The notes under the pieces are model-generated. The model did no database searches. It saw nothing but the letters and a program-made list of their open reading frames with translations, and had not been told where the DNA came from. A program made the translations under genes and the position numbers. From Phoronis pallida (Eukaryota; Phoronida; Phoronidae), in contig JAOXYC010235347.1 of the NCBI GenBank assembly GCA_028565715.1, positions 1 through 26,286 of the forward strand: a stretch of 26,286 bases of DNA, given 5' to 3'. How positions within the stretch are numbered: position 1 is the first letter of the stretch; the number at the start of each line of letters is the position of its first letter. Shown here one piece after another: positions 10,501-25,950 of the stretch.

Positions 10501-13500
10501 AATGAACAATATGTTCAGCAAAATCTTTTTTCCATCAAAAAAGAAAATTCTATTTCTAGACCAAAACTCCTACCTTTAACCTGTATAAGCATGAGATCTT
10601 GGTATGGGTCCAGTCTGTTAGCTATGATGGGATTAGCCTGAGATGATCGCAGCTCCACCTTTTTGAAGTTTTCTTTACTTGCCAGACCAGCGAGTGCAGC
10701 CTCGGCAAAACCAGCATCGGCTGCGACTAAAATTTAAAACAGGAACTTGAGAGAAAACGATCAAGTGTACTACAAGAGGTTTTTCTGTTTTCTTAAATTT
10801 AGCAAGATTTTAAACATTCTTTTTTAAGATAAAACTGAATATTGCATGGCAATAAGTCTTTTAATTTACTTTTTTTTTGTAAAAACTACAAAATTGAAAT
10901 TTACCACAATGCTATTGAATAATGACTCACTTCAAAGAAATTTAAAAGGAAAATGTTGATCATCATTTGAAAAAGATTTTGTAATTAGTGGAAAGTACAT
11001 TTCATGTCGCCAATTATTTTTTGCAATTTCATTTACAGCAAAACTTGACTCATCCAGAAAGTGATTTTTTTTACATCAAGGAATTCAGGAGACCATAAAC
11101 AATTTTTTGCATTGTTCATTTGATATTTCATTGACTTACGAGCTTGTCGTTTGACCCTCTTCACTTCTTTCTCCGCAGCACCAGTGTTAACCTCTGTGTA
11201 CTCTGTCTGGATGTCTTTCCGTTCCTTTAATTGCCTGAGTGGGTTTTTAGCACCAGCCGCCCTCCTCTGAGGTCGAGGGGCACGCTTTGTTGTGGCAAGA
11301 CTGAAGTTGAACAATGTCCCATTTATATTTATAAATGTTTGGGCTGAGGTAGAATTTGTATAAAACCTGAGCCAAGTTTTTTAGATCACAACATGTTTTG
11401 GTGATTGTATCCAGCATTATCAAGCCTTGTTATACAATGAGGAGCCAAGAGGAGACTGCGTATGAATATGTTCGATTGTGATTTAAACACAGCCTCCTCT
11501 TGTCATTTTATTAAGCCTGATAATGGCAGATGGAATCACCGAAACATGTTGCGATAGAAAACTTGGTTGTTTTTATTCAAGACCTATTTCTCATTTGAAA
11601 ATTTTTAACAAAGCATAATACTTGGTATGCAAAACTACAAATTGGAATAAGTTATAACAATTAAATCTCAAGAAAATTTCCATACAATTATATTACTTGA
11701 AAGAAACTAAAGGTTTGAGTTAACATGACTTACATTTTGTTAGACTTCTCTGCAATGAGATTTAAATCATCGAGCGAGATGTCAACCTTTTGGTCTGATT
11801 TATATGTTGAGTCAAAGAATGTGTCGAAGTCCTCATCCGTTTTCAACACTTCAACTTTACGTTCTTTTGGTTTGTCATCGTCATCATCGTCATTGTGACT
11901 GGCGACAATTGCTGCAAAGAAAGAGAACTTAAATTTGTTGTCATTTTACGGTCTTAGAAATATTAGGAGCGAATTTCTACCTTGTGTAAAGCAAAATTGA
12001 CTGAAGTACAATTTCCAATCCTTTCTACAACTACCAAATTAAATTAGCCTTTAAGAAAAATGTCTTGGTATGTTTCACCAACCAAATTTTTTAATTCAAT
12101 GAGATACTTACACAATGCATAAAACTTACTAGGGACAGGCTCTTTGACTTTAGCTCGTGGAACAATAGGTGTCGCCGGTTTCTTGAACTGTGTTTTGTCA
12201 GGTGATAGAGGGGGTGAAGTGTCAGCTGAATCGGATTCTGAAAATATTCATCAAATTGAACAGACCACATTTTTCACATACATAGGCGCATGCGCCTAAA
12301 TGTGCAACAAAACGGTAGCATGTAGAGTACAAAAAAGAACTAGAGTTAAAAGTTTCCAAATATTATGGAATTCACTTTCCTGGCAATATTTTCTTAAGCT
12401 ACAGTCCCATAAGTTGGACCAAATATGAACTGTCTCAAACAAGAATATAGTAAACATCATAAAATTAATATGGGAAAACAAAACAGGAACAAACAGGAAA
12501 AGGTAATTTAACACACTTTTTGTCAGTATGGTAAATTCAGGCTTTTAGACACTATAAATCACCTAAATGTAGATCATCTTCCATATTGCATTGGATTTTG
12601 AAACCTTAAAAGTAGCGAACCAATCGCTGATGACGTTACCTTTATTGGCTAGTCTAAACGAGTTACTTTTCGGTATCCTTCTCTTCCTGGCCACCAGGGG
12701 GCTCGCTGTTGGTTGTACGGCCTTGCCTAAATCAACCAACAAACATGGGATGCAGTTAGCACATGAACAAGTGGGTTGTACTAAATTGACTAAATTTACT
12801 AAACAAACTAGGAGGGTGACTAGTACATGAACAGTAAAACTAACCAAGACATACTATGTCAAAATATTCTAATTTTTGTCAGAACCGTTGAATGTAAAGT
12901 TAGACTTTGGTGAATTCCCGCCAGTTCCATCAATATTTCCACAAGAACTTTGGTGTCCGAAAATAGGGCAGGTCATCTACTGTAACTGATAATTTTTTTT
13001 TTCAGAAACATTGAATGTAGAGTAGACTTTGGTGAATTCCCGCCATTTCCATCAATATTTCCACAAGAACTTTGGTGTCCGAAAATGGGGCAGGAATGTA
13101 CTGTAACTGGATAACTCAACATGCAAATTGACATTCTGGTAGAAGAAATTTGGTTCATGCACTCAGAAAATGGAAATTCCTAAAAGATGCAGACAGATAT
13201 TGTAATCTAATGACTGACCCAACAATTTCAGGAAAATGCACATCTCAGTGAAGAACTTTGGCTAACAAGCTTTCTGTTTCATTCAACTAAAATATGGCTT
13301 AAATTCTAATTGGTAACCAATTAAAAGCTGCTAGGTGTTCGATCAAACCTACAATAAATTTTAAGCACATTTTATGCTTTGCTGACTTTCCTTATCAAGT
13401 GGCATTTTAGGCAATATTATCAGTAATAGCCTACTCATGTTGCTTTAACTATCGTTCTCTCCAAGTAAGGTATCTATCATGAAAACTTCAGATCTTACAA

Positions 13501-16500
13501 CCAAACTTGCAGATCAGCCCACAAACCCTGCATTATCAATCACCCAAACAGCAATTTTTACCACTTTCACAAACTTTTTAATTTGCATAGAAAGTGCTCA
13601 AAGATCATAGTTGTCAATGGATTTGAGAGTATTTGCTGGGTGGGAGGTTTCTCTTTTGGGGTCATGTGACTGATTGGCAGGTTTGCACAATGGATACCCT
13701 GCTTGAGAGAAAGACATTTCAGACCCCTGCAAAATGCTTATAAAATATTACGACTAAATTACATTCAACTTCACTAACAGCCTGTGAAAAAGATGGATTT
13801 GCTGACATGTGATTATTGTTAACTTACCGGCCATTTTGCCTTCCACTGTGAATTGTGTAGCGTCATTTTCTACGCCTTTTTGAGCTGTCCACTTCTGGGA
13901 TGAAACTTCCAAACAAGACAGTCGGTCTGCGATACTCACGGGACGATCACCTTGACCTTTACATGAATTCAAAAGTTGATATACAAATGATTATCAAAGA
14001 ATTCAATGATAAAGTTTTTCAAAGATGTCTCGATTCGTTGACAAATAGCAATCCTCTTCAATTAGGAATTGCGAAGAGCCCAAGCCTGAGGTAGTGATGG
14101 GGCAACCTAATGTAGACAGATGGGCGTAATTTCTCCCAGAAACACAGAGATTTTCAGATATGTTAAACTACTGATATCCTTGAATCAATATAGCGTACCA
14201 GGAGAAACACTAACTTCTCATTGCCAACACAAAACTTAGTGACAGTTTTTGGGACATAATTTTTCCGGTGAACTTAACCTTTGACCTAAAATTCTTTTAC
14301 GTTAACTTTAAATTTATGGACCACAGACGATACTAATTGATCATGCTTTGGTATACACATAGACTCAATCAACATTAGCACTGAAAGTTGAAAATAAATA
14401 TACCCTTCTTGTCCCTGATAATAACTGCACTGAGATCTTTGGGAACCTTTTTCTTCCAGTTTTCTTCGCCATGCGTCTTCAGTAGCTGGAGACGATCCGA
14501 AATTGACGTGGACATTCCCCCGTCCATTCCGTCGCCACCATCACCAATAGGTTCAACCTCGGCTTTTTCAATGCGTGTGATTGGCTGGGTAAGGTGGCGA
14601 GTCCCGTAGGCTTTCGACTTGCGTGGACTGGGCGATCGCTGGCCCGGTGACGCTTCAATTGGTTGGGTGTTATATCTGTGAAAAAAGTTCAAAATTATAA
14701 GAAATATTCAGAGACTATCTAAAATAACACAAAATTTGAAACAAAACTTGGACAAAACGATGACAAGTACTTAACAATAAATTACACTTGGGAACAAAAA
14801 CTGTTTGAAACTTTTAATTACAATTTTCAAAGACAAGCCACAACAATATACAATATCTAAAACTATTTTTTTCCAAAATTATGCACCAGAAATTGCACAC
14901 ATTGCTTATAATTTCAAACAGGTCCAAGACAATTAAAACATGCTGCAGTACCATGAAAAACCACAATAAATCAACCCTTAGAAAAGCTCATGACTCAATG
15001 TTTGCACATGGAGGGGGACTGTTCAATAGTTCTAATAAAGATAACCTGTGTAAATAAATTAAACAATAAAACAAAAATCTAATTCTTGCAAAATGTGTTT
15101 TAGCTATAAATAGAGTACGCATAGATTAGTCAACCTAATCTGAACTAAACAAAAACCATGAAAAACCTGCATGTTGTTTTAACAACAGGTTTTTATACTT
15201 AAAAGTGTACCTAAACAGATTTCCCATATTGACTGCTCCAAAGAAATTAAAACAATCCACAGAACACCTCTTCCAGACACAGTAAATTGTTTTAAAAAGA
15301 CTGAATGCACATCATTCAACCAAATTTGGCAAGGAAATCAAACTGTTTTCCACAAATGCACATGGGAATTAAGCCCAAAAACAAAACAGGATTTTTTTTG
15401 GAAAAAATGCTAATTATTGATCACAACCTGACGCCACAATACGTATCAAAGCCTATGATAATAGCTAATCAAAAGAAGACTACATCAATGTCAAGAGCAC
15501 AATACATACTTATTATAAGTCACTTAATAAATGCATAATTTGCCTTTATTAGCATCCGTTATCAGTTGTTAATACTTGACAAGGGCTGAATCATACATTG
15601 CTATATAGAGGAATAGCCATAAAATGACCAAACGTTTTTTGCATGTGCGTTGCCAACGTATGCAAAATGACCTCATTTCGTATTCTGTTCAGACGAACAG
15701 CAGAACATGAGCAAAATAATAAATAAATGGTTCCTCATCTAAAAGATAACTTCCTGTTATTATATAATCTATTCATCATAGCCAGTATCTAGTCTGCTAA
15801 AAACAAAAAGATCATGAATAAAAGGAAAATAATTTTACAAATGAAAACATGTAAACACCACTGATTTCAGTTGAGAACAGTTATAAACTATTTCTTCCGT
15901 GTCCCCCAAAATTCCCCACATATAAGATACTGCATATCATGTCTATATAACCCTCAGAATAAATCATCAATTGTCTCTTTACAATATCTCAGTGCACCAA
16001 TGCACATTGTAAAGTACATGTATACAACCTTCATGATTTGGTTATACTCACAATACAGCAACCACACACAATAACACAACGATTTCTCACGAATCCCCTA
16101 CACACACATACAAATTCCCATACACACAAACTTATTTTCTTATTCTCATGAAATCCTGCATAACTTGCCTCAGTGTGCCTGCAGATTATGGTTGTGCTAC
16201 CCTGAACAGCTGCATAAAACTCTTGATCTAACAGAATATCCGTGATTCAACGCAAGATATTGATTTGTTTGTGTGACACTAGCTGAGCGAGATCGAGATC
16301 GGGAAATTATGATGTTACATCAAATAGGTGTGCCCAGTAGTTTTGACATTTGATGAAAACTGTGGATGAATAATTTAAGAAGTGACAATATATATTAAGC
16401 AATCAACTCGACTCCATATTATTAGCAATTTGGATTGTGAGTTTTGTGATTTTTCTAATTCATCCACACAACCATCTTGCATATGCCACGAGAAATTAAT

Positions 16501-19500
16501 CGAGACATTTTGACCACATGGCTCTGTTGAAAAATAAAACTGTCCTAATTCGGAAAACTGAATAATCTGCCTCCAAGCTGTGGTGGGATGCCTTGGCCAT
16601 ATAAAGATACATAGAATATGCAGGACGAACCAGGAATCAATGTGTAAGCACTGACAATTAATCACAATAAATAGTCAGTCTAATCTAGGAAATATTCTTC
16701 AAGTAACACTTACACTTTCAGAAAATAAATAGCTCACAACTATTAATTTGCTCACTTTATTTCTGAATCTCAAATTATCCAATTTAAGGCCAAAAATGTT
16801 TTAATTAGCCAATGAAGTACCTGGAATCAGTCATACACGATTTTATGGAACAATTTGTTTTTTCATTTCCCAGCCAAATCTCTGACTAATACCTCAAGCT
16901 AAGTAATTTGTTTGATAATGAGTTATGAATATGGAAAAGAAGCTTTTCCTATTTGCAACATGGTAAACCACTTAACCCTCTATTATGGCGGTTTCCAGTG
17001 CACACCCACACAAATATAATAAATGGTCCTCAAGGAAAATAGGTACAGTTTAGTTATGGGCCAAGAATTCGCAAGATAAAACCCCGATAAAACATGAGTT
17101 AGAGAAAATAAATTTCAACTCCTTGCAGAGTTATGATTTTCTGTGGAATGAAATGTTAAATGATAACAGTTAAAGTACCGCATGTATACCATACACCTGG
17201 GTAAAAGCCAACCCTCTGTTATAAGCCAACCCCCTATTTTGATAAAATCTTAATTTTGTGCTTGACTGTTAATATAAATGCATGCAAAAGACCACTCGGG
17301 TATAAGCCCACCCTAGTTTTTGGACATTCTCAATCTACAAGCCCATGGGCTTATGGCAGGGTGTGTGTAAGTACTTTCGCTATACTGACATTGAGGTGAA
17401 CCATGTTTGTTTTCCAACTAGTTTTTTTAGGGAATTTATACTAACTGCACTTGGTTCAATTCGTGTAAGAGCAGACATAAAAAATTGACAATTCTAAGTG
17501 CTTATAAATATGTATTTTTATATCTATAACTCTTAATCATCTTACAATCCATTAACTGGTCTATCACAATTCACTATCAAGTGATTTCCCAGCCATGAAG
17601 GTAAACATTGCACTTCAGTGTTCATACACATACAATGGGCTGACACTTATTTCTAATACACAAACCAGTAACATATAATTTAGTCTATCACAATACACAA
17701 TTCAAAACCTGCTCAGTCAGAGACCTTTTCACATTGGAAACATGTTGTCTAATTCTCAATAAAGAATCTTATCGAGATCAGCTAGCCATGTAATTCCATA
17801 AATCACATTTTGCTCAATGATAAAATTACCAGTTTTCAAGCAACAGCCCTTTTCACATTGAAAACATGTGGTCTAATTTTTAAACAGAATCTACTCAAGA
17901 TCAGTTTGCTATGTAATTAAAGAAATCACATTTAGCTGAAGCTGATAAAATAAGCCTTTTCAATGGTTACCATGACAACCACCACCATGATTTATGCAAC
18001 AAAAATTGATATACCTGGATTCGGTGCGCGGCATTTTTATAGTTGATCCTGAACTCCCACACACTATCAATCAATCAAGGTGATTTATGCTGGTGATAAA
18101 ATATCTAGATGTCTACCATTCAGTTTACACCTCTGCAAGATCTCCAGATCAAACTTTTTGTCTTGAGCCACCAAGAATTCTCATATCAGCACAAGTTGTA
18201 ATTTTCAGTCAGGGATGACATTTTTGCTTCATATCACTAACATTTTCCCTATAATTGCTCTTTCAGTCGAGTCTAATGTGCTAATGTGAACATATGACGG
18301 TATGAAGGTAAATCCTTTTCAACACATGCACAGCAGACACCATGCAAAATTCCCATCAATAGAGACACATTCTAATCAAACCAACTTTGGTTAATTCCTA
18401 GGCAGATGACATCTTGAAAAGTCCAGGTTTCAAGTCGGAATCCCCATGAATCCAATTCGGATTTTAAGATTTTCTTGAAAAATGTAGGTAAGGTTGATCA
18501 ATGCAACATTGGTCTATTTTGCAGTTTCAGCAAAAGCAACATGAGAAATAAAACCGGAGGCAGAAAACCGTCTCAAACAGCATAGATATAGACGACTCAT
18601 ATAAAAAATCCATACTTCTATAGCCAGGTAGACACAAAGTCAGTGTGTTCACAGTTTGAATACAGGCAGGTTTTCAATGAAAACAAAGCCGATTTCTAAT
18701 CTTGGATAGTTATATCAACTCCAAAAATCAAGATTACAATTCACAACATTCGTGATCCCAATGAACACATTTCCTAAAAAACTCCAGACCAGGTGTGTCA
18801 ATTCTCCAGTCTGCATGCACACCTTTATAAAACACCAAGTTCACAGTCAAATCCTTATCAGTCGTATAACACAACCTTAGCACGAGAATATCACAAATAC
18901 ATTGACCTCGGCATAACAACACTCTAACCAGCACAAGTGCGCAATCCCTCGTTATCACTGATAAAATTATATGACGATAATTCCCAATTGTCTCTTCCTG
19001 GTTCTAAGTGGTTTAAAACAATGAACTAAAACATCCGATTGGTCAGCAAGCCACCAAGTCGCCCCAACCAACTCTGTGTCACCCTAACACAACTTCATGA
19101 GCCACAATAAACACAAAACCCAATTCAGTGGGAGTGGTTCAGGTTGTCATTTCTAAACTTGTCCCTTATTAAAGATGGCCTCAGGTGGGTTGTTATTAAA
19201 TAGGCTATATTACGCTGGTAATAAAAGGTTAAGATGGTCAAGTGAACCGTATCAAAATATGAAATAAATTTTACCCAGGGACTTGAAGGTGTCACAGTAC
19301 AAAGAAATAAAAGTGAAACATTGATATTTAATTGATGTTTATACCTGAATAAGTGTCAGCCATTGTTGCTCATTGATCACTAAGATACATAAATTTGAAA
19401 AAAAACGAAAAAATCGAACTTGTCTGGGAATCGAACCCTGAGGTTTCCTATTAAAATAATAATTTTTATGTTATTTAGTTAGATTTTGCTAATTAAAAGT

Positions 19501-22500
19501 GCATTTCAGTGTTAAACATGTGTTAATCATGAATAACAGATGCATCAAAAAGCAAGCACCTAAGGACCACCTTAATCCAATTAGTGGTTTACAATATACC
19601 TAATTGGCCTCACAAAGGTAATTACCTTAAAAACAATACAACTCTCTTCCTTTGTGCTAGGTAAGGTTGCTGCTTCAGTTTGATTCAATCTAACATTTAA
19701 CATCAATTGAGAAACAAACATCAGGGTCAAATTTGCAAAATTACCTTTCCTGGAAACACCTTACCTTTCCGAAGCTGAGCTGAGCTTGCAACTAAAGAGT
19801 TGTAATGATGTTTAACAGAATGTTTCTACCTTCGCAGCATCGCTAGGGGGGCATAATTTCAGCTGTCATATTGATGTTTTAATATGATATACGAAGGCCA
19901 TTAATCATTTGATGAATCTTCATGTATACCACCTAACAAGAAACTTAATATGATTTTTTTCTATTTAGTGGTACGTCTTTTTTATTCATGATGCGGGAAT
20001 TAACTATTAAATAAAATTTTCAAATTATCATCCATTTTTACTGGATTGCAAAATGAGCTTCAGCTTAGCTACCAAAGTCTTCAAACTCAAATGATGAATG
20101 ATTCCTGAGCTATCAGAGAATGTAAAATAAAAAGTTTGCAGGCATTAGGAAAAGAGGATGTTATGACCAATAGTTCCTGCTATTAAAGTGGGTACTAAAA
20201 GTAATATAAACAGTACTTACAATAATATTTATAACTAAGATTAAAACTAAATGGAAAACTGAATCCTTCAAGCTTTCAATTCTCAAGTCCCCAAGCTAAT
20301 AACACTAGAACCTGTCCTTTCAAGCACAAATCAACCACTAAATTCCTGTGTTGTTTATGATATTCATAAGTGAAGTGGAGATGTAAAATGCCAAAAATCC
20401 ATTAACTAAACTTTTCCTGTGCAGATTTATAATATCTTTAACCGTGCTAACCAACACGAAAAGTACAAGAACAAAATCCTACCTTTTCTTAACCTCAAAT
20501 CCTCGGGCGTTACAAAATCTAACCACCTTTCATACCCATACTGGTATGATCGCCTTCTACCTATATCCTGTGTTGATTAGACCAGATGTCTTTTTAATCT
20601 GAACCTTTGAGTATATATTATACACAATGCTCGGATTGACCTATTTAATCTAAAGGAAACATAACTCTATCAAAGACGTGTATTATAAACTTGTCTTCTA
20701 AATAATTCCTGGATATTCAGAGGTTAGACACACACTGTTGAACGGTAGGTTTCTATGCTGAGCCATTGTTCGGGTTTTATACGTTTGTTAGAAAAACATG
20801 AAATGTCTATTGTCCCGATTTGTGAATAGGATGCTCAAATTACCACACCTATGCTAAACCAATAAAAAAGTCCAGGGTTGTGTTTTCATGAAAAATAGCG
20901 ACAAGTATCAAAACTAATCTCAGGATTTTGAGACAAGTTCTTTAAAATTGTTAGACCACTGACAATTTTTGTGATTTGCAATTTATGTTTCGTCAAAATG
21001 CAAAGATGGACTTTGCAGAACAAAGCACATTGCATTCACAAGTTATTTCTGGAAAATGATTTGGATAGATTGACAGCAAGCTGTTGCGAATTATCTTAAA
21101 AATAACCAGCGATTCCTGCAAACCGATGGACCAAATTCAATCCTTTAAAAAATTGATAAATAACACAAAATATTTTTAAATTTTCTGAAATTCCTTACCA
21201 GAATATGACTGCAACCATTCACAGTTTAGACCTTCACATAGGATGAGGTCTTTCAAACTGATAATCATTTGACTTTTATGCCAGCATAAATAATGATAAA
21301 CATTGCCAATATCTCCACATTCTTTTGCCATGTGACAGACAAGTGTGTTACATAACTAATATATTTACTAGGCTGGTGTATTATGTAACTAATAAATATA
21401 ATTTCCCCATATGGCACTGAGTGCTTGCAGAGACATCAAAACAACTTGCAGGATTTGCATTTGCAGAAGACCGTAGTTCAAAGACTTCTTCAGAATTGAT
21501 AATCCCAGGCACCAGCAGGCGTTGAGAAGACACCCTTGGGGATAAGGGCCCTTAAGACGAACCAAGGCCAGATATACCAAAAACATGTTTTAAGATCTAA
21601 GCGAGATCTATAAAAGTGGGGAGGGTGGCATATAATAACAACTAACATGAAAATGCAATTGTTTAACTTTTGACTTATTTTTTCTGCAAACTCGTAATGT
21701 TAATTAACTTATTAATTCAGAGCTGTCTTAAACACATAATTCAAACCTCATTTTTATAATTTTTCAACTTTACATCCTTTTTTTTTAAAGGAAATACAGG
21801 AAATTCAATAGACTTCAATTTTCAAGATGGTACTTCTAAATAGTTCAAAGGAATATCAGGAAACCTGTTCATCTAGATATGGAAAGATAGATAAATTTAT
21901 TACATAATAAATCAACTTCCCCTTTACACAAGTTTGACCAGACGAAGGTATAGTGCCGTGCATTCCCATCTAGGTTACCATTCAGAGCACTCACAAACTG
22001 CAAGGCAAGATTATGTCGGAAAAGATTTCAACACTTATTGTTAAATTCCAAAGGAAACCTCTTCAAACCAACTTCAAATTTATGCCGAAATTCACTAATC
22101 TGAAAAATAAGTCTGAATAAATTGCCCATTCCAGACATTGACAACCATCTACAAAAGGGTTCTAAAAACAAAATGGCTACCAACCTGCTTAAGTCTCCAG
22201 AACGACGTGCTTCCGCATTGGCTCTCCTTCTCGACACGGCATCGTTGCTGATTTTGGGGGTGACAGGTTCTTTCTCAGTGACTGTTTCTTCAAATTTTGT
22301 AGAGTCTATCGAATCCCCATCTCCACGATCTGCGTAACCATTTTCCTTTGTTGTTGAGGTGACTGTTTTCTTGGGGGTTTTAAAGTCTGTGTTGATATTT
22401 TCGTTGACAGGCTGCGTTTTAGTTTTTAACATAGGTTCTTTAACTGGGGTAGATAATTTGGATTCTTCTGGTACTGTTCGCTCGACAGGCTCAGCTGATT

Positions 22501-25500
22501 TCTTCACAACTGTAATTCAAAATTTATAAATTAAATCTTATCTATTTATCAGTTCACAGACTTAGATCAGCCTTGCTGAATTCCAATTATCTAAACTAAC
22601 AGCTTATATCATTTTTGATCACCACACCAATCAGATCATGCAATGAGTGATTCTTTACTAACCATGGACCTGTATGGCACCGGGCCCACTAAGATCAGAA
22701 TTTAATCTAATTTTAAGCACACTCAAATCTTAAATTTTTGGTAAAAATGAATTTTTCGTGTACAAATGTTTTGTTCTATTACAAACCTGGGCGTAATGGG
22801 CCTTCAGAGAATGAACCACTCCTTGAATTTGGGTTAGACCCGGGCCTGGACGAGGGACTACCCAATGCAACTTCTGCGTTGCGCTGAATCAGGTCCCATT
22901 GTGCTGAGATAGGAATGGTCTTTAAGATCTCCGGGTCGGGTGGTTTCACTAGGCTCATGGCTAGTGGTGAGATTTTGCTGGCTTTCTCCACTTCTTCATG
23001 AGTGACCGGCTGTAACACAAAACAAAATAGCATTAATAATCAGAAAAGTAGGCAACGGTCAACATCTTTACCCTTTTCTCCAATATTTTCCAAAATTCAA
23101 CCAAACACGTGTTAAAAGTAGGTCACATTGTTAAGTGACCTAGGTAGGAAACGTGAGATATTTAAATGATTTTGAAATTCTTGAACCAGTGTCATTCACA
23201 GAATGACTGAGACCTCTATGGTCTTTTCTGAGGAACAGAGTTACACACTAAAACATGTTAAACAAGGCTTAAAGACTTCGCAAAATAGATTCAGGTTAAA
23301 CAGGATGTCTAGTTAGTATTTCCATTGAAAGTTTATGGTGTCATCAGAAGAATATTGGCAATGCGAAGTACTGAGGAAAGTACCAGTAAGACGGTACTGA
23401 AAATTTCTGCACGGTAAGATTTTGCATATTGTTTGGATGATACAACAAACTTTCAATGGAAAAAGGCTTAAGGACTCATTTTGAGAAAGAGCCAGGATCT
23501 CACCAGACTCTCAATTGATTTAGAAACAAACGATTTTGTACATAATTTGCAAGTTCATCCAATAACTGTACATACCTGTGTTTTAAACCTAGAAGCCAGT
23601 CGACCCTTTCTACGCCGGACAACAGGTGCCTCTGTCTTCGGAGGTGCCTTCTCTTCCTGCTTCTTTTGGAATAATTTCATTTTCTCCATTAGACTTAGCC
23701 TGTAGGGTGAAAAATCAAAATTATGATAGCAAAAATTTTAATTTCTTAAAAACCTTTGGAAATTTTTTTGTAAATGATAAAGGCGTAATGAAAGTTGTTT
23801 CGACCTCTTATTCCAATATGTAAGGAAAACACATGAAAACAAGGAAAATAAAAGCGTTCTGAACTTGCTGGCAAATAGTCCTAGCCTAATCTGAACAACA
23901 AATTTTACAGTTTGATAAAAAAATTCACCTTGAGTGTAAAATGAAAAATGTAATTCTTTCAAGAAATTAACAAAAGTTCTATACAAAGAAACAACACTTG
24001 GTCCTTATTTAGTTTCCTCAACCCGAGTTAAAATCATTTTGAAAAAACCTGTAAAACAATAGTAATAAAATGGCCGATCGCCAGCGTAAAACAATTATGA
24101 TCCTGGAAAACAGTTCTACAAACCTTGACACATCTTCTTCAGAATCAGAAGATGGCTCGTCCCGCTTTGGTCTCACAACTTCCGTCCTGGGTAGCGACTC
24201 GGTGCTAGCCTTATTTTCATTTGTTCCCAATTTCCCCGCAGCCTTCACCTCCCATTCTGTAATTGGTTGAGTACGGGACCTCTCTCGACGTGCCTTATCC
24301 AGTATTCGCTTGGCTCCAACTGATTTTGGTTTTGACGCAGCCGCAGCTTTTTCCTGCTCCTTGTTAATGCGTTTAAATTTCGACGCCTTCGATGTGACGC
24401 TTCCTTTCGACTCATCGCCCAGCGGCAAACTCAGCTCTTCCGCGAATGCCTGAAGCTCCGCCAATGCATCCGAATTCTTTTCAAAGTATTTTTCAAATTC
24501 CGGATCATCCAGATCGATATCAATATGGACAGGGGACCTCCTGGGTGACTTTTGGATAACGGTAGGTGGTGAGATACGGATAGGAGATGGTGGGGAGTTC
24601 TGGCCCGATGGTGGTGACTTCCTTACAGGAGATGGTGGGGGTTTACCAGTAACGACTCCAGGAACTTCAGATGTTTCAATTTTGGGAGGTTTCTTCACTG
24701 CACGTTTCTTTTCAACAGCAGATATTTTTTTCTCCAAGGGACGAGCGTGGCGCGAGGCTAATTCTGCCGCCTCAACAACTTCTTCTTGGGTGATGGGAAG
24801 GGTTTTGAACCTTGGGTCCAAGTGTCGATCTTTGGCATATTTCCTTCGCCGTGTTTTCTTCTCGGGTGGTACAAGGTGTTGTGGGTACTCTAGCTTCGCA
24901 CCGGGAGGATATTTGGGTGCAGATTTGTCGTCCTGTTGGAACACGCTCAATGACGCCCTCTTCATAACTTCTGCTCGGAATGTCAGTACTGTTTGCAGGC
25001 TAGAAACCAAAAGGAGATATTAAAGTTTACAAAACTTGAAGGTAATTTAACCTGGAAACTAATAAATTCTCTCTCAAGAAAATCATTAAATCTTTAAAAT
25101 ATAATCCAACATGGAAAGATGGCTTCTAACATTCTTTGCAACATTTCAATGAAATCAATGTGCGTACACAACGCTCATGAGGAAATATGACTAGCGCCCC
25201 CATATGGCCATCACATTCGTCCAGCAAGCAAATGTTAGGGGTTGGATTCCTAGCGTGTTGACTTGATTTCTCAGTATATCCCACAATTATTCATTTCTTC
25301 AATACACCAACAAAGGTTTAGTTTTTACGTAACCATGGCAACATACTTGTCCGCTTCTGTCACCTCTTCGTGAGTGACAGGAAGTGTTCTCGTCCTCCAA
25401 TCATTGCGTCCCCTCTGAAATCTCTTGCGTCTTGAACCAGCCTCATCAGTCGACATCTGCTTGATAGGACCAGGTGAAACTTCTAGCATTTCCTCGTGCT

Positions 25501-25517
25501 CTTTTGCTCTCGCAGGC
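1509..25517 (-). CDS. SVIL: Supervillin-like actin/membrane linker, 26 exons, 5' partial
   Basis: One spliced gene on the minus strand; coordinates span first visible exon to stop codon. Joining 26 exons by GT-AG borders (one GC-AG) gives a continuous frame of 1,709 complete codons with no stop. Layout by residue of this fragment: 1-900 charged, low-complexity N-terminal half; about 925-1030 gelsolin segment G2; 1031-1131 G3; 1190-1350 G4; 1360-1480 G5; 1484-1625 G6; 1635-1709 villin headpiece. W-x-G core motifs sit at W969, W1092, W1306, W1415 and W1549. Lack of a G1 segment, the long N-terminal extension and phrases such as [23 protein letters not shown] and LPDGVDP identify supervillin rather than villin, advillin or gelsolin. 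Family knowledge: it ties F-actin and myosin II to the plasma membrane. Vertebrate forms run about 1,800-2,200 residues, so perhaps a few hundred N-terminal residues lie outside the window. Confidence 0.95.
1926..1951. repeat. Perfect 11-base palindrome in intron 25
   Basis: aatatcaaatt and its exact reverse complement aatttgatatt are separated by atga. AT-rich, so it may be chance or part of a small inverted-repeat element. Confidence 0.5.
2354..2509 (-). CDS. SVIL: SVIL exon 25 (villin headpiece, N-terminal part)
   Basis: Acceptor ttgtttcag, donor gtttgt, phase 0 in and out. Encodes residues 1630-1681: a Lys/Arg-rich linker, helix [17 protein letters not shown], then [21 protein letters not shown]-x-L-x-x-L-x-x-x-PLPxGVDPxxLExYLSDExF is the standard start of the headpiece. 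The next intron (1596-2353) holds only a short palindrome. Confidence 0.97.
3219..3340 (-). CDS. SVIL: SVIL exon 24 (end of G6)
   Basis: Acceptor tttcttacag, donor gtatga. Encodes residues 1590-1629 with [20 protein letters not shown] and DHEDIAKL. The AGLEPL-FTN-FP-W phrase ends G6 in supervillins. The next intron (2510-3218) shows no gene. Confidence 0.96.
3426..3461. repeat. Nested hairpin in intron 23
   Basis: Outer arms agcctg/caggct enclose a perfect inner hairpin gcaccat-t-atggtgc. Richer than the surrounding intron. Could be the core of a small inverted-repeat element. Confidence 0.5.
3875..4033 (-). CDS. SVIL: SVIL exon 23 (G6 core)
   Basis: Acceptor tttttatcag, donor gtaggt. Encodes residues 1536-1588: [20 protein letters not shown] (W1549), an acidic insertion [12 protein letters not shown], then [19 protein letters not shown]. 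FLxDNHxEVYxWQGWWP is diagnostic for supervillin. The next intron (3341-3874) contains a nested hairpin at 3426-3461. Confidence 0.97.
4358..4434 (-). repeat. Stem-flanked CTGATGA/CGAAAC (hammerhead-like) motif
   Basis: On the minus strand, CATAAATAAC (4425-4434) and GTTATTTATG (4358-4367) form a perfect 10-base stem. Between them lie CTGATGA (4416-4422) and CGAAAC (4394-4399), the two conserved boxes of hammerhead ribozymes, spaced as in hammerheads of retroelement origin such as Penelope-like elements. Stem II pairing is poor and two extra bases precede CTGATGA, so an active ribozyme is doubtful. Probably a decayed repeat fragment. Confidence 0.4.
4462..4623 (-). CDS. SVIL: SVIL exon 22 (G6, first half)
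   Basis: Acceptor actttacag, donor gtaggg. Encodes residues 1483-1535: [20 protein letters not shown], then [20 protein letters not shown] and ANRNQP. PRLF-x-x-SS-SG-F-x-x-E is the first strand of G6. The next intron (4034-4461) contains the hammerhead-like inverted repeat at 4358-4434. Confidence 0.95.
5049..5493 (-). CDS. SVIL: SVIL exon 21 (end of G4 and all of G5)
   Basis: The second longest exon, acceptor ttatccag, donor gtgagt. Encodes residues 1334-1481: [20 protein letters not shown] and IIHIGK close G4; then G5 with [37 protein letters not shown] (W1415), a helix through AERLKTKCP, and [19 protein letters not shown]. The order V-x-G-x-EPP-FL-x-x-FxG-M-I then RL-x-x-V is shared with gelsolin and villin. 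The following intron (4624-5048) is AT-rich and featureless. Confidence 0.97.
5633..5787 (-). CDS. SVIL: SVIL exon 20 (G4 core)
   Basis: Acceptor aatattttag, donor gtaacg. Encodes residues 1282-1333: [17 protein letters not shown], then [20 protein letters not shown] and [13 protein letters not shown] (W1306). YFWQG...S...[14 protein letters not shown] is the strongly conserved centre of G4. The 5' part of this exon and its acceptor are duplicated in the adjoining intron. The next intron is short, 139 bases. Confidence 0.97.
5850..5938 (-). pseudogene. Partial duplicate of exon 20 start with its acceptor
   Basis: The interval matches 5748-5830 about 101 bases away, covering roughly 41 coding bases of exon 20, the acceptor and adjoining intron. 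The copy reads ttgttcag|GTTTGAAGATG... and encodes [11 protein letters not shown], against [12 protein letters not shown] in the true exon; it has lost three bases but keeps the frame. It stops at the equivalent of ACATT, has no donor and then runs into TAA-containing intron. It is a truncated tandem duplicate, with a functional-looking acceptor that could compete with the real one. Confidence 0.75.
6173..6342 (-). CDS. SVIL: SVIL exon 19 (G4), with a GC donor
   Basis: Acceptor tgtttttag. Encodes residues 1226-1281: [20 protein letters not shown] followed by [15 protein letters not shown], the first G4 strands (VWHV, QFH-GD-YVV). The exon ends CAG|gcaaga: the intron starts GC, not GT. No usable GT lies near, and the phase-1 end joins exon 20 exactly. 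The GC-AG intron is inferred from frame and homology on both sides. Confidence 0.93.
6670..6782 (-). CDS. SVIL: SVIL exon 18 (entry to G4)
   Basis: Acceptor gtattaacag, donor gtaaat, ending two bases into a Trp codon. Encodes residues 1188-1224, with LKPYDAKLM and [13 protein letters not shown]. The L-x-G-x-xVGRG element matches supervillin before G4. The intron 6343-6669 shows nothing notable. Confidence 0.93.
7077..7134. repeat. Imperfect hairpin with 27-base arms
   Basis: Left arm 7077-7103 and right arm 7107-7134 are reverse complements with few mismatches around a three-base loop ttc (core agaaatttactcgatc / gatcaagtaaatttct). It lies in the exon 17-18 intron. Probably a small fold-back element. 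Confidence 0.65.
7311..7477 (-). CDS. SVIL: SVIL exon 17 (G3-G4 linker)
   Basis: Acceptor attattttcag, donor gtaagt. Encodes residues 1133-1187 with [20 protein letters not shown] and [12 protein letters not shown]. The RP-W-x-x-FG-x-x-x-E-x-x-ETxLFxEKFxxW phrase is specific to supervillins and absent from villin and gelsolin. The next intron (6783-7310) contains the hairpin at 7077-7134. Confidence 0.95.
7825..7981 (-). CDS. SVIL: SVIL exon 16 (G3 core)
   Basis: Acceptor atttttgcag, donor gtgagt. Encodes residues 1080-1131: [20 protein letters not shown] (W1092), helix [15 protein letters not shown] and DCDINPLYP. The F-DFGSE-x-YxWxGK core is diagnostic of supervillin G3. The intron 7478-7824 shows nothing notable. 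Confidence 0.96.
8286..8407. repeat. Weak inverted repeat in intron 15
   Basis: actgtcgcataaa near 8286-8298 and tttatgtgacagt at 8395-8407 are inverted with one mismatch, with acacagct and agctgtgt as a second offset pair near the ends. May be a decayed terminal-inverted-repeat element. Confidence 0.3.
8544..8689 (-). CDS. SVIL: SVIL exon 15 (gelsolin segment G3, first half)
   Basis: Acceptor atattgcag, donor gttagt. Encodes [20 protein letters not shown], then [20 protein letters not shown] and HEMLQSTE (residues 1032-1079). Matches the supervillin linker and early G3 (DELVP...WG..P). The intron 7982-8543 contains a weak inverted repeat near 8286-8407. Confidence 0.94.
9079..9226 (-). CDS. 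SVIL: SVIL exon 14 (end of G2)
   Basis: Acceptor catgttttag, donor gtaagg. Encodes residues 982-1030: helix [18 protein letters not shown], an EE-K linker and [13 protein letters not shown], the F-W-x-x-LGG turn that closes gelsolin segments. The intron 8690-9078 is AT-rich and holds nothing notable. Confidence 0.95.
9273..9345 (-). repeat. tRNA-like sequence, probably a tRNA-derived SINE remnant
   Basis: On the minus strand a 73-base stretch has a box A-like TGGTGTAGTAGTT, a D arm (GTGT/GCAC), an anticodon-like stem (CTAT/ATAG), a near-perfect box B (GAGTTCGATTCCC) and a TTTTT shortly after. Two or more acceptor-stem pairs are lost, the T stem has a mismatch, and the position before the anticodon is A instead of T, so an active tRNA is unlikely. 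A related sequence with shared flanks occurs at 19388-19502, favouring a dispersed tRNA-derived repeat. Best resemblance is to the Glu/Asp tRNA type. Confidence 0.55.
9929..10065 (-). CDS. SVIL: SVIL exon 13 (gelsolin segment G2)
   Basis: Acceptor ctgttcccag, donor gtatgt. Encodes [20 protein letters not shown], then [20 protein letters not shown] and VIEKAK (residues 936-981). The S-x-N-x-GD-x-F-x-L and LW-x-G elements are the gelsolin-fold core strands; KGRRxVxxR corresponds to the G2 start in gelsolin. The intron 9227-9928 holds a tRNA-like repeat. Confidence 0.96.
10574..10726 (-). CDS. SVIL: SVIL exon 12 (start of gelsolin segment G2)
   Basis: Acceptor aaattttag, donor gtagga. Encodes residues 886-935, including [20 protein letters not shown], conserved in supervillin, and the first strand of gelsolin-like segment G2 (LMLIQVK). 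The intron 10066-10573 shows nothing I can name. Confidence 0.95.
11140..11300 (-). CDS. SVIL: SVIL exon 11
   Basis: Acceptor caacttcag, donor gtaagt. Encodes a basic stretch ([14 protein letters not shown]) and then [19 protein letters not shown] and [11 protein letters not shown] (residues 832-884). The NPL-x-x-L-x-x-R-x-D-I-x-x-EYTE phrase is a hallmark of supervillins directly before the gelsolin-like region. The intron 10727-11139 is AT-rich with nothing notable. Confidence 0.94.
11372..11567. mobile_element. Fold-back/MITE-like element with about 55-base inverted ends
   Basis: The left end (11372-11426) and the reverse complement of the right end (11513-11567) agree over most of about 55 bases, both reading ccaagtttt...caacatgttt-ggtgatt...cattatca-gc. 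An inner inverted pair (ccaagaggagactg / cagcctcctcttgt) extends the hairpin, so almost the whole 196 bases can fold back. The right arm contains CCTGATAATGG...CCGAAACATGT, resembling the motif at 4394-4422. Non-coding; no transposase. It lies in the exon 10-11 intron. Confidence 0.75.
11734..11911 (-). CDS. SVIL: SVIL exon 10
   Basis: Acceptor ttctttgcag, donor gtaagt. Encodes residues 773-830: an Asp run (NDDDDDDK), then [13 protein letters not shown] and [15 protein letters not shown]. The acidic FD-FF and SLDDL elements match the supervillin segment ahead of the gelsolin repeats. The following intron (11301-11733) contains the fold-back element at 11372-11567. Confidence 0.93.
12130..12237 (-). 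CDS. SVIL: SVIL exon 9
   Basis: 108-base exon, phase 1 in and out, acceptor atattttcag, donor gtaagt. Encodes residues 736-771, a Ser/Pro/Lys-rich linker ([14 protein letters not shown] then [18 protein letters not shown]). It contains LSPDK and ATP proline-directed sites. Like exon 8 it could be skipped without a frameshift. Confidence 0.9.
12640..12726 (-). CDS. SVIL: SVIL exon 8
   Basis: Short 87-base exon, phase 1 in and out, acceptor gatttag, donor gtaacg. Encodes [20 protein letters not shown] and NSFRLANK (residues 708-735). The Pro-Leu-basic-Pro pattern ([10 protein letters not shown]) is characteristic of this part of supervillin. Its length is a multiple of three with equal phases, so skipping would keep the frame. 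The intron 12238-12639 shows nothing notable. Confidence 0.9.
12871..13115. repeat. Two-copy tandem duplication of about 120 bases
   Basis: 12871-12990 and 12991-13115 share long identical blocks (gactttggtgaattcccgcc, then ccatcaatatttccacaaga, then actttggtgtccgaaaat). They differ by a few substitutions, a poly-T length change and small indels. It lies inside the exon 7-8 intron. Non-coding on both strands as far as I can see; a fairly recent local duplication. Confidence 0.85.
13828..13956 (-). CDS. SVIL: SVIL exon 7
   Basis: Acceptor atgtaaag, donor gtaagt. Encodes [20 protein letters not shown] and on to QFTVEGKMA (residues 664-706). The SIADRLxxL...KW pattern parallels exon 6, and SIADR followed later by QFTV-GKM is typical of the central region of supervillins. 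The following intron (12727-13827) carries a tandem duplication, described separately. Confidence 0.93.
14404..14675 (-). CDS. SVIL: SVIL exon 6
   Basis: Acceptor ttttttcacag, donor gtatat. Encodes residues 574-663 of the long form (residue 573, Arg, spans the junction). Starts [12 protein letters not shown], contains SPSPRKS, then [14 protein letters not shown] (602-615, another copy of the recurring motif), a Gly/Asp-rich linker and a helix [20 protein letters not shown]. The xISDRLxxL...W pattern recurs in exon 7, suggesting two related short helical units. The following intron (13957-14403) shows nothing notable. Confidence 0.93.
15161..15195. repeat. Short hairpin in the large intron
   Basis: aaaaacctg and caggttttt form the outer arms, with gttgttttaacaac as an inner palindrome. 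Small and AT-rich. Confidence 0.45.
17172..17377 (-). mobile_element. MITE-like inverted-repeat element, copy 1
   Basis: About 205 bases. The ends read aaagtac...acacctgggtaaaagcc on the left and, reversed, aaagtac...acacaccctgccataagcc on the right: imperfect terminal inverted repeats. The inside repeats ggtataagcccaccct-type sequence in both orientations. The reverse complement aligns along its length with 25766-25950. Non-autonomous and non-coding. Confidence 0.75.
17721..17952. repeat. Imperfect tandem duplication, about 110-base units
   Basis: 17721-17829 and 17845-17952 share the order ccttttcacattg-aaacatgt, gtctaatt, agaatct, agatcag, atgtaatt, aaatcacattt, gataaaat. Similarity is patchy, so the duplication is older than that at 12871-13115. 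No coding content. Confidence 0.7.
18015..18034 (-). CDS. SVIL: Candidate alternative first coding exon of SVIL
   Basis: The minus strand reads ATG CCG CGC ACC GAA TCC AG followed at once by gtatat, a good donor. It leaves phase 2, exactly what exon 6 needs, giving [16 protein letters not shown]. The start context has A at -3 (aaaaATGC), and an in-frame stop lies shortly upstream (in ttgattgatag), as expected of a 5' untranslated leader. The predicted isoform would drop exons 1-5 but keep the linker, gelsolin segments and headpiece, about 1,143 residues. No convincing core promoter was fixed; a weak ctataaaa lies just before the ATG. Supported by phase, start context and donor; expression is inferred. 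Confidence 0.55.
19388..19502 (-). repeat. Second, decayed copy of the tRNA-like repeat
   Basis: Contains GGGTTCGATTCCCAG (box B) on the minus strand. On the plus strand both copies share an aaattttgaaaa-type tail on one side and a tag...tgctaattWaaa-like stretch on the other, matching the surroundings of 9273-9345. The box A half is largely lost and the middle is shorter. Consistent with a SINE-like family. Confidence 0.45.
20483..20567 (-). CDS. Candidate cassette or alternative exon in the large intron
   Basis: An open, coding-looking 28-codon stretch ([20 protein letters not shown] in its middle) lies between an acceptor-like aacacag and a donor-like AAAG|gtagga, the same donor context as exon 12. 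A second donor, TTGAG|gttaag at 20494, would leave phase 2 and join exon 6 in frame. The entry phase is 0, which does not match exon 5 but matches exon 3. Base composition is richer than the surrounding intron. It could be an alternatively used exon, a relic, or chance. I do not recognise the peptide. Confidence 0.35.
22185..22509 (-). CDS. SVIL: SVIL exon 5
   Basis: Acceptor gaattacag, donor gttggt, ending two bases into an Arg codon. Encodes residues 465-572: Lys/Glu/Thr-rich, with TQPVNENIN (a degenerate relative of the recurring motif), several TP dipeptides and an Arg/Ala-rich end ([15 protein letters not shown]). It reads as intrinsically disordered. A coding-like run of unrelated residues continues past the donor but is intronic, because exon 6 joins in phase. 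Confidence 0.9.
22787..23009 (-). CDS. SVIL: SVIL exon 4
   Basis: Acceptor gtgttacag, donor gtttgt. Encodes residues 391-464, starting [12 protein letters not shown]. The TQ that completes the recurring motif is supplied by the last two codons of exon 3, so the motif straddles a splice junction. A Pro-rich segment and a Ser/Arg/Pro stretch ([13 protein letters not shown]) follow. No folded domain recognised. Confidence 0.93.
23316..23466. mobile_element. MITE-like element with perfect 16-base inverted core
   Basis: tttccattgaaagttt (23319-23334) and its exact reverse complement (23447-23462) lie at the ends; the similarity continues inward for about 12 more bases (tggtgtcatc against ttgtatcatc). 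The total is about 150 bases, with no coding content, in the exon 3-4 intron. No clear target duplication found. Confidence 0.7.
23576..23699 (-). CDS. SVIL: SVIL exon 3
   Basis: Acceptor ccctacag, donor gtatgt; its first base completes the Arg codon begun in exon 2 and it ends on a codon boundary. Encodes [16 protein letters not shown] followed by a basic tail with RRRKGR (residues 350-390). The amphipathic [10 protein letters not shown] helix resembles short helices in the N-terminal half of supervillins. The next intron (23010-23575) contains an inverted-repeat element described separately. Confidence 0.92.
24124..24999 (-). CDS. SVIL: SVIL exon 2, large disordered N-terminal exon
   Basis: The longest exon (876 bases), acceptor tttctag, donor gtttgt. 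Encodes residues 57-348. Contains a basic stretch [10 protein letters not shown] (104-113), the motif [14 protein letters not shown] (123-136), a Pro/Ser segment with repeated SP dipeptides (about 177-213: [20 protein letters not shown]), an acidic stretch around 216-226, Lys/Ala-rich sequence, and another motif copy [13 protein letters not shown] (300-312). It ends in a Ser/Asp/Glu cluster. Predicted disordered, with likely proline-directed phosphorylation or SH3-binding sites by inference. The intron that follows (23700-24123) holds nothing I recognise. Confidence 0.93.
25347..25517 (-). CDS. SVIL: SVIL exon 1 of window (N-terminal region)
   Basis: Acceptor tttctcag at the 5' side, donor gtatgt. 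Its first base completes a codon begun in an exon not yet assigned; it ends two bases into a codon. Encodes residues 1-56, rich in Arg, Lys and Glu, with a basic patch RRKRFQRGR and the first copy of the recurring motif ([12 protein letters not shown], residues 44-55). No domain recognised. The following intron (25000-25346) shows nothing notable. Confidence 0.88.
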
Positions 25518-25765: not shown

Positions 25766-25950
25766 ATTGCACACACCCTAGCGTAAACCTATGGGCTAGT
25801 GGATTGGAAATGCCAAAAAATTGGGCTTGGCTTATCCCCAGGTGGGCTTGTACACTCAAGCATTTATGTACAAGCACAAAATTGAGATTTCATCAAACTT
25901 AATATACCGAAGGTATTTGGGCTTACATTCCGGTAATGCACGGTAACAAT
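25766..25950 (+). mobile_element. MITE-like inverted-repeat element, copy 2
   Basis: Starts cacacaccct and ends near gggcttacattccggtaatg. It matches the reverse complement of 17172-17377 in the same order: cacacccT, cctatgggct, ccaaaaa, ggcttatccccaggtgg, aagcacaaaattgagatt, catcaaa, ggcttac. The copy is somewhat shorter and diverged. The opposite orientation shows independent insertions of one family. Confidence 0.7.

Follow-up and report, generated by a model that had tools for sequence, protein, structure and literature searches.

A candidate alternative start exon in intron 5 of the supervillin gene of Phoronis pallida

Dp71 and Dp116 of dystrophin, like G-utrophin, are made from promoters in late introns of their genes, each with a first exon of its own that supplies N-terminal sequence (PMC1790709). 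This first exon is joined to a common downstream exon, so that the actin-binding N-terminal part is lost and the C-terminal module is kept (PMC1790709). Transcripts support Dp71, whose first-exon peptide is given as conserved across jawed vertebrates in the available part of that account (PMC1790709). The vertebrate SVIL forms SV1-SV5 and archvillin, which belong to the same gene family as the locus described here and resemble its product in the C-terminal half, vary by internal coding exons and have the N-terminus in common; the available part of that report describes none that is without the N-terminus (PMC6192639). In Drosophila, a chimeric Svil-roo transcript was found, also by the 5'-end method RAMPAGE (PMC10570057). 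As far as the available text of that study goes, it resembles the present case in that supervillin transcripts are able to carry sequence from elsewhere, and differs in being made with a transposable element (PMC10570057). Our literature search, which covered few subscription papers, found no description of a short supervillin form arising from an internal start; this does not prove that none exists.

In the phoronid Phoronis pallida, the fifth modelled intron of the supervillin gene contains a short exon-like segment encoding MPRTES that, on balance, is probably a genuine alternative-start exon. Its likeness to Dp71, Dp116 and G-utrophin lies in the late-intron position, the separate first exon and the loss of the N-terminal half; it differs in concerning another protein family, in being predicted from sequence and in a first-exon peptide with no counterpart beyond the two copies compared here.

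The window, by which we mean the whole stretch of 26,286 nucleotides analysed, carries the supervillin gene on the minus strand, modelled as 26 exons from 25517 down to 1509 that form a single ORF of 1709 amino acids with its TAA stop in the last exon. What the initial annotation had called exon 1 is merely the first exon within the window, and the true 5' end of the gene lies beyond 26286. Supervillins have an extended, disordered N-terminal half that carries RxxTQP(I/V)T repeats, and exons 1-5 of the window fit this in matching the N-terminal halves of the Mya, Potamilus, Ptychodera and echidna supervillins. Pfam found neither gelsolin repeats nor a villin headpiece in the 573 residues of exons 1-5, and found both in the predicted short product (gelsolin repeats, PF00626, E 1.6e-20; villin headpiece, PF02209, E 1.7e-17). 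Exons 6-26 share about 50% identity with proteins of Lingula and molluscs, which are also the best matches of the predicted short protein (about 50% identity, among the best 120 of the matches listed); identity to a Lingula supervillin-like protein is 51% over the whole length. The parts of the gene that matter here are as follows.

22185..25517, minus strand: exons 1-5 of the window, encoding 573 amino acids (junction Arg included) that the short form lacks
22185..22509, minus strand: exon 5, to which exon 6 is joined in the long form as the alternative upstream partner; its end reads GDLSR, phase 2
14676..22184, minus strand: intron 5, 7509 bp, host of the candidate start exon
14404..14675, minus strand: exon 6, with the common acceptor after ttcacag; acceptor kept in the second copy, contig C28
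1509..14403, minus strand: the remainder, the intron after exon 6 and exons 7-26 with the stop codon; common to both forms; gelsolin region and villin headpiece

Within intron 5, the initial annotation had pointed to an ATG in good context, six codons, a gtatat donor in the phase needed by exon 6 and an in-frame stop upstream, and each of these elements is present. The ATG at 18034-18032 on the minus strand has A at -3 and opens the codons ATG CCG CGC ACC GAA TCC (MPRTES), which lead to AG/gtatat, with the donor G at 18014. Joining 18015 to exon 6 at 14675 fits the required phase 2, the AG and the A forming an Arg codon, and a TGA lies in frame upstream at 18073-18071. The predicted frame is open for 1143 amino acids to the TAA of the last exon, with seven residues replacing at least 573. 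An alternative first exon should have an ATG, an open frame and a donor whose phase suits the downstream exon, and the segment has all three.

The splice sites are also of normal strength. On a matrix built from the gene's own 24 GT donors, CAG/GTATAT scores 8.31, which ranks third among the 494 GTs of intron 5 and exceeds the median of the gene's own donors. Upstream, the acceptor AG at 18090 scores 6.95, ninth among 393 AGs and level with the median score of the 26 acceptors that the gene itself uses. The first ATG within 18089-18015 is the one at 18034, and it is open to the donor in phase 2. The proposed exon thus consists of the following elements.

18015..18089, minus strand: proposed whole exon, 75 nt, a 55-nt leader without ATG and then the 20-nt coding part; 76 nt in C28
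18015..18034, minus strand: coding part of the start exon, MPRTES plus 2 nt; identical in C28
18090..18110, minus strand: proposed 3' splice site, ..TCTAGATATTTTATCACCAG/C, as scored for the acceptor; identical in C28
18009..18014, minus strand: 5' splice site gtatat, third of the GTs in intron 5; identical in C28
18071..18073, minus strand: in-frame TGA upstream of the ATG; in C28 an in-frame TAG instead
17953..18062, minus strand: run of 110 bp identical in both copies, containing the ATG, the codons, the donor and 62 bp of intron

An unspliced leader beginning as far upstream as 19100, as had been suggested, is unlikely, with 24 ATGs between 19100 and 18035, the last of them at 18119. These upstream ATGs argue that transcription would start at about 18118-18035, no more than some 85 bases from the ATG, or that the exon would be entered via the acceptor at 18090. 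Two possible promoter signs were considered and rejected. A TATAAAA at 18041-18035 touches the ATG; transcription starts 25-30 bases downstream of a TATA box, so a start directed by this one would fall past the ATG at 18034. Nor do CpG content and GC skew, in 400-base windows, peak in any singular way at 18-19 kb, the CpG ratio being 0.71 at 18984-18585 compared with 0.77 at 15784-15385 and 0.69 at 16584-16185. Rfam returned no family at gathering score, and ARAGORN no tRNA.

Based on these features, the transcription, splicing, translation and function that we infer for the exon would run as follows. A transcript would start inside intron 5, either at about 18118-18035 or in a non-coding upstream exon spliced to the AG at 18090. 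Translation would begin at the ATG at 18034, and 18015 would be spliced to 14675 in phase 2, giving a supervillin of 1143 amino acids in which seven new or junction residues replace at least 573 of the N-terminal half. This short product would keep the gelsolin region, the headpiece and probably one A3-like actin-binding segment. Several N-termini would then enter through the one acceptor of exon 6, much as exon 63 serves Dp71 in dystrophin.

How far such an arrangement stands from chance depends on how much of it is counted. The MPRTES ATG-to-donor pair by itself is near chance, barely above it: intron 5 holds two pairs this good against 0.77 expected (mean of 100 dinucleotide shuffles). The other pair starts with the ATG at 21218 (21218-21198) and encodes MVAVIF before CTG/GTAAGG, a donor scoring 9.51; this candidate lies outside the stretch covered by C28 and has no purine at -3. 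With 0.77 equally good pairs expected, the MPRTES frame could be an accident within conserved non-coding DNA such as an enhancer, or within a patch where the two copies happen to have diverged little, and no exon would be made; we consider this unlikely, if far from negligible. Against it stands the organization of the segment, in which acceptor, first ATG, phase and donor form one 75-nt unit. At the observed scores, 18089-18015 is the sole exon-like acceptor-donor pair (20-400 nt) in intron 5, and a comparable start exon arose in 25 of 300 shuffles (mean 0.083), a test that is post hoc in that the exon-pair thresholds were set at the observed scores.

A second copy of the region offers a comparison within the same assembly. 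Contig C28 is collinear with 19455-5522 of the window and about 90% identical to it. Its exons 6-20 are intact, with pS of 0.151 and pN of 0.005 relative to the window, which indicates that both copies have long been under selection. C28 may stem from a recent duplication, be a homeolog or represent a divergent haplotype; a pS of 0.15 is high for alleles. Among random probes of the assembly, one of three had a collinear partner at 90-95% identity (C5 with C236) and two of three had none; a search of the assembly for a second copy of exon 2 found none. If the window and C28, which differ at 15% of synonymous sites and have intact frames, are haplotypes, they are unusually divergent ones; the pairing of C5 with C236 is similar. 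The copies also differ at the exon 19 donor (6173), which is GC in the window (CAG/GCAAGA) and GTAAGA in C28. Where the similarity to C28 ends, at 19400-19455, there is a GGTTCGATTCCC-like stretch that is perhaps the edge of a SINE insertion and in which ARAGORN finds no tRNA; we take the stretch to be reminiscent of a tRNA B box.

The acceptor, ATG, codons and donor of the candidate exon are identical in the window and C28. Neither copy has an ATG ahead of 18034 within the exon, and the in-frame upstream stop is kept in C28 as TAG. Only two changes fall in the exon, both in the leader, so that the differences between the copies spare the coding and splice parts, which argues against a chance frame. 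One of these two changes shifts the exon length by 1 nt, from 75 to 76, and leaves the reading frame untouched; such a change should be tolerable for a leader and would not be for a coding cassette. The stretch 18129-17953 contains two difference events; the median is 10 for intron 5 and 18 for the other introns.

The support that identity to C28 lends to a start exon is no more than moderate. Where intron 5 is aligned, the copies differ at 217 of 4346 well-aligned columns (5.0%), compared with 449 of 4773 (9.4%) in the other introns pooled, and intron 7 is about as conserved as intron 5 (4.4% raw mismatch). Aligned intron 5 has six identical runs of at least 108 bp, and a 32-bp segment placed at random falls in an identical run of 110 bp or more in 12.3% of cases. 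Of 4548 windows of 177 bp, 165 have two events or fewer, and these form four clusters, one of them exactly at 18129; the share with no more than one event is 22 of 910 in intron 5 and is higher, 48 of 868, in the other introns. Comparable identical blocks without exons thus occur in intron 5 and in other introns, as an enhancer or patchy divergence would have it. Multiplying the pairs expected in aligned sequence by the 12.3% placement share gives about 0.06, which is small and not tiny.

Other non-coding features of the region deserve mention in their own right. The longest identical run of intron 5 is 265 bp (17670-17406), contains no candidate exon and is a possible control element. Directly downstream of the alternative donor, a 123-bp unit is tandemly duplicated at 17724-17963, its repeats about 80% alike, in both the window and C28. 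A dispersed repeat of about 130 bp occurs at 17238-17370, in intron 5, and in inverted orientation at 25767-25897, the two being 73% alike. In intron 7, an identical non-coding run of 219 bp (13228-13010) adjoins a 122-bp tandem repeat (12873-13114); a 121-base insertion in C28 looks like an additional copy of this repeat.

Since the acceptor at 18090 and the donor are both of normal strength, the same 75 nt could instead be included at times between exons 5 and 6. Read from exon 5, the frame reaches a stop after SINHLD in both copies (TGA at 18073-18071 in the window), so that inclusion would send the transcript to decay and tune the amount of long supervillin. A poison exon of this kind would need neither an ATG nor phase 2 toward exon 6. 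The segment has both, and C28 retains them; we regard this explanation as distinctly improbable. A coding cassette of the long form is very improbable indeed. From an AG at 18054, a 39-nt exon could be placed between exons 5 and 6 with a length divisible by three and an open frame, but that acceptor scores -5.26, ranks 364th among the 393 AGs and falls under every own acceptor of the gene, while the better acceptors at 18090 and 18049 yield a stop and a frameshift, respectively. The 34-nt cassette from AG 18049 (score 4.78, rank 38) was rejected on account of this shift.

The start-exon interpretation gains from the predicted supervillins of other lophotrochozoans. Two protein searches had 1964 and 3313 matches, of which the best 120 each were listed; about 8000 candidates were scored, and 28 of 201 listed proteins were examined in full: ten named lophotrochozoans, 'lgn' proteins, several vertebrates, a hemichordate and arthropods. 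With only the best 120 of each set at hand, the lack of short vertebrate forms among the matches listed is uninformative. Among the matches listed, the top match of the short product is a Lingula anatina gene model of 1148 amino acids that starts MLYSM/YNTLG. Six of the ten named lophotrochozoan predicted proteins carry a non-canonical N-terminus that ends directly ahead of the Y-x-T with which exon 6 begins.

Lingula: alternative N-terminus of 5 amino acids; predicted protein of 1148
Plakobranchus: 27 amino acids; protein of 839
Dreissena: 28 amino acids; protein of 1146
Batillaria: 120 amino acids (incomplete)
Bulinus: 194 amino acids; protein of 1328
Elysia marginata: 527 amino acids; protein of 1674

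The switch falls before Y-x-T-Q-P (Y-N-T-L in Lingula), the first whole codon of exon 6, as in the Dreissena gene model (..LQI/YKTQP). Lingula, Dreissena, Plakobranchus, Bulinus and Elysia marginata have the same predicted join before exon 6 as the phoronid and unlike N-terminal peptides, the MLYSM of the Lingula gene model being about as short as MPRTES. No counterpart of MPRTES was found among the other species' proteins examined, and blastp of the three alternative N-termini that are long enough against five canonical N-terminal halves gave no similarity at E<=0.01. The residues before the switch are M, I, E, R, R and K (R in the window), all codable as NN plus a purine, which is what a single phase-2 acceptor starting with a purine would demand. 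The sea slugs Plakobranchus and Elysia have different N-terminal pieces at the same switch point in these models, as if several starts docked on one acceptor.

The remaining four of the ten are without the switch: the canonical half is present in Mya and Potamilus, and the Elysia chlorotica and Tegillarca models begin further in. A search limited to residues 20-200 of the Dreissena protein returned four proteins, including Dreissena itself. Four 'lgn' proteins (P0009, P0011, P0040 and P0128; 1095-1176 amino acids), which appear to be arthropod-like, are also short; as far as they align, their switch lies elsewhere, and they are outside the six of ten. In other species, exon 6 thus serves as an entry point in gene models. 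That predicted N-termini switch at the same residue in other species speaks against a chance frame in the phoronid. Together with the acceptor-framed exon and the identity in C28, this shared switch point favours the alternative start.

The initial annotation proposed that a product lacking exons 1-5 would keep the gelsolin segments and headpiece and lose a region that probably carries the myosin- and actin-binding functions. The first part agrees with the Pfam assignments; for actin binding as a whole the second is too strong, as an A3-like segment probably stays. The junction aligns at about residue 634 of the 1783-residue echidna supervillin, in a poorly conserved stretch, with firm alignment from 684. 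In bovine supervillin, the A3 actin-binding segment presumably spans about 571-830. From the junction and these bovine coordinates, the myosin site, A1 and A2 would be lost and most of an A3-like segment would stay. The short form may therefore still have weak contact with actin, but recruitment of myosin II through the known site would be lost. Another report, in its available part, names supervillin as bearing a short actin-filament motif (PMC13364712).

A broader proposal, which we put forward tentatively, is that protostome supervillin genes are two-headed like that of dystrophin. Under this scenario, the internal unit would be old and the exon-6 acceptor a fixed dock, the first exons (MPRTES, MLYSM and others) would turn over fast between lineages, and the conserved blocks of intron 5 would be the control region of the unit. 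If so, these animals would make a supervillin of gelsolin region and headpiece, without the myosin II site and most of the actin sites. The question is directly testable in oysters, snails or Lingula, for which short database models already exist. If the short form is real, it may act as a partner-binding module, as a competitor of the long form or as a regulator freed from the cortex, and a natural form consisting mostly of the C-terminal half would show what role that half has of its own.
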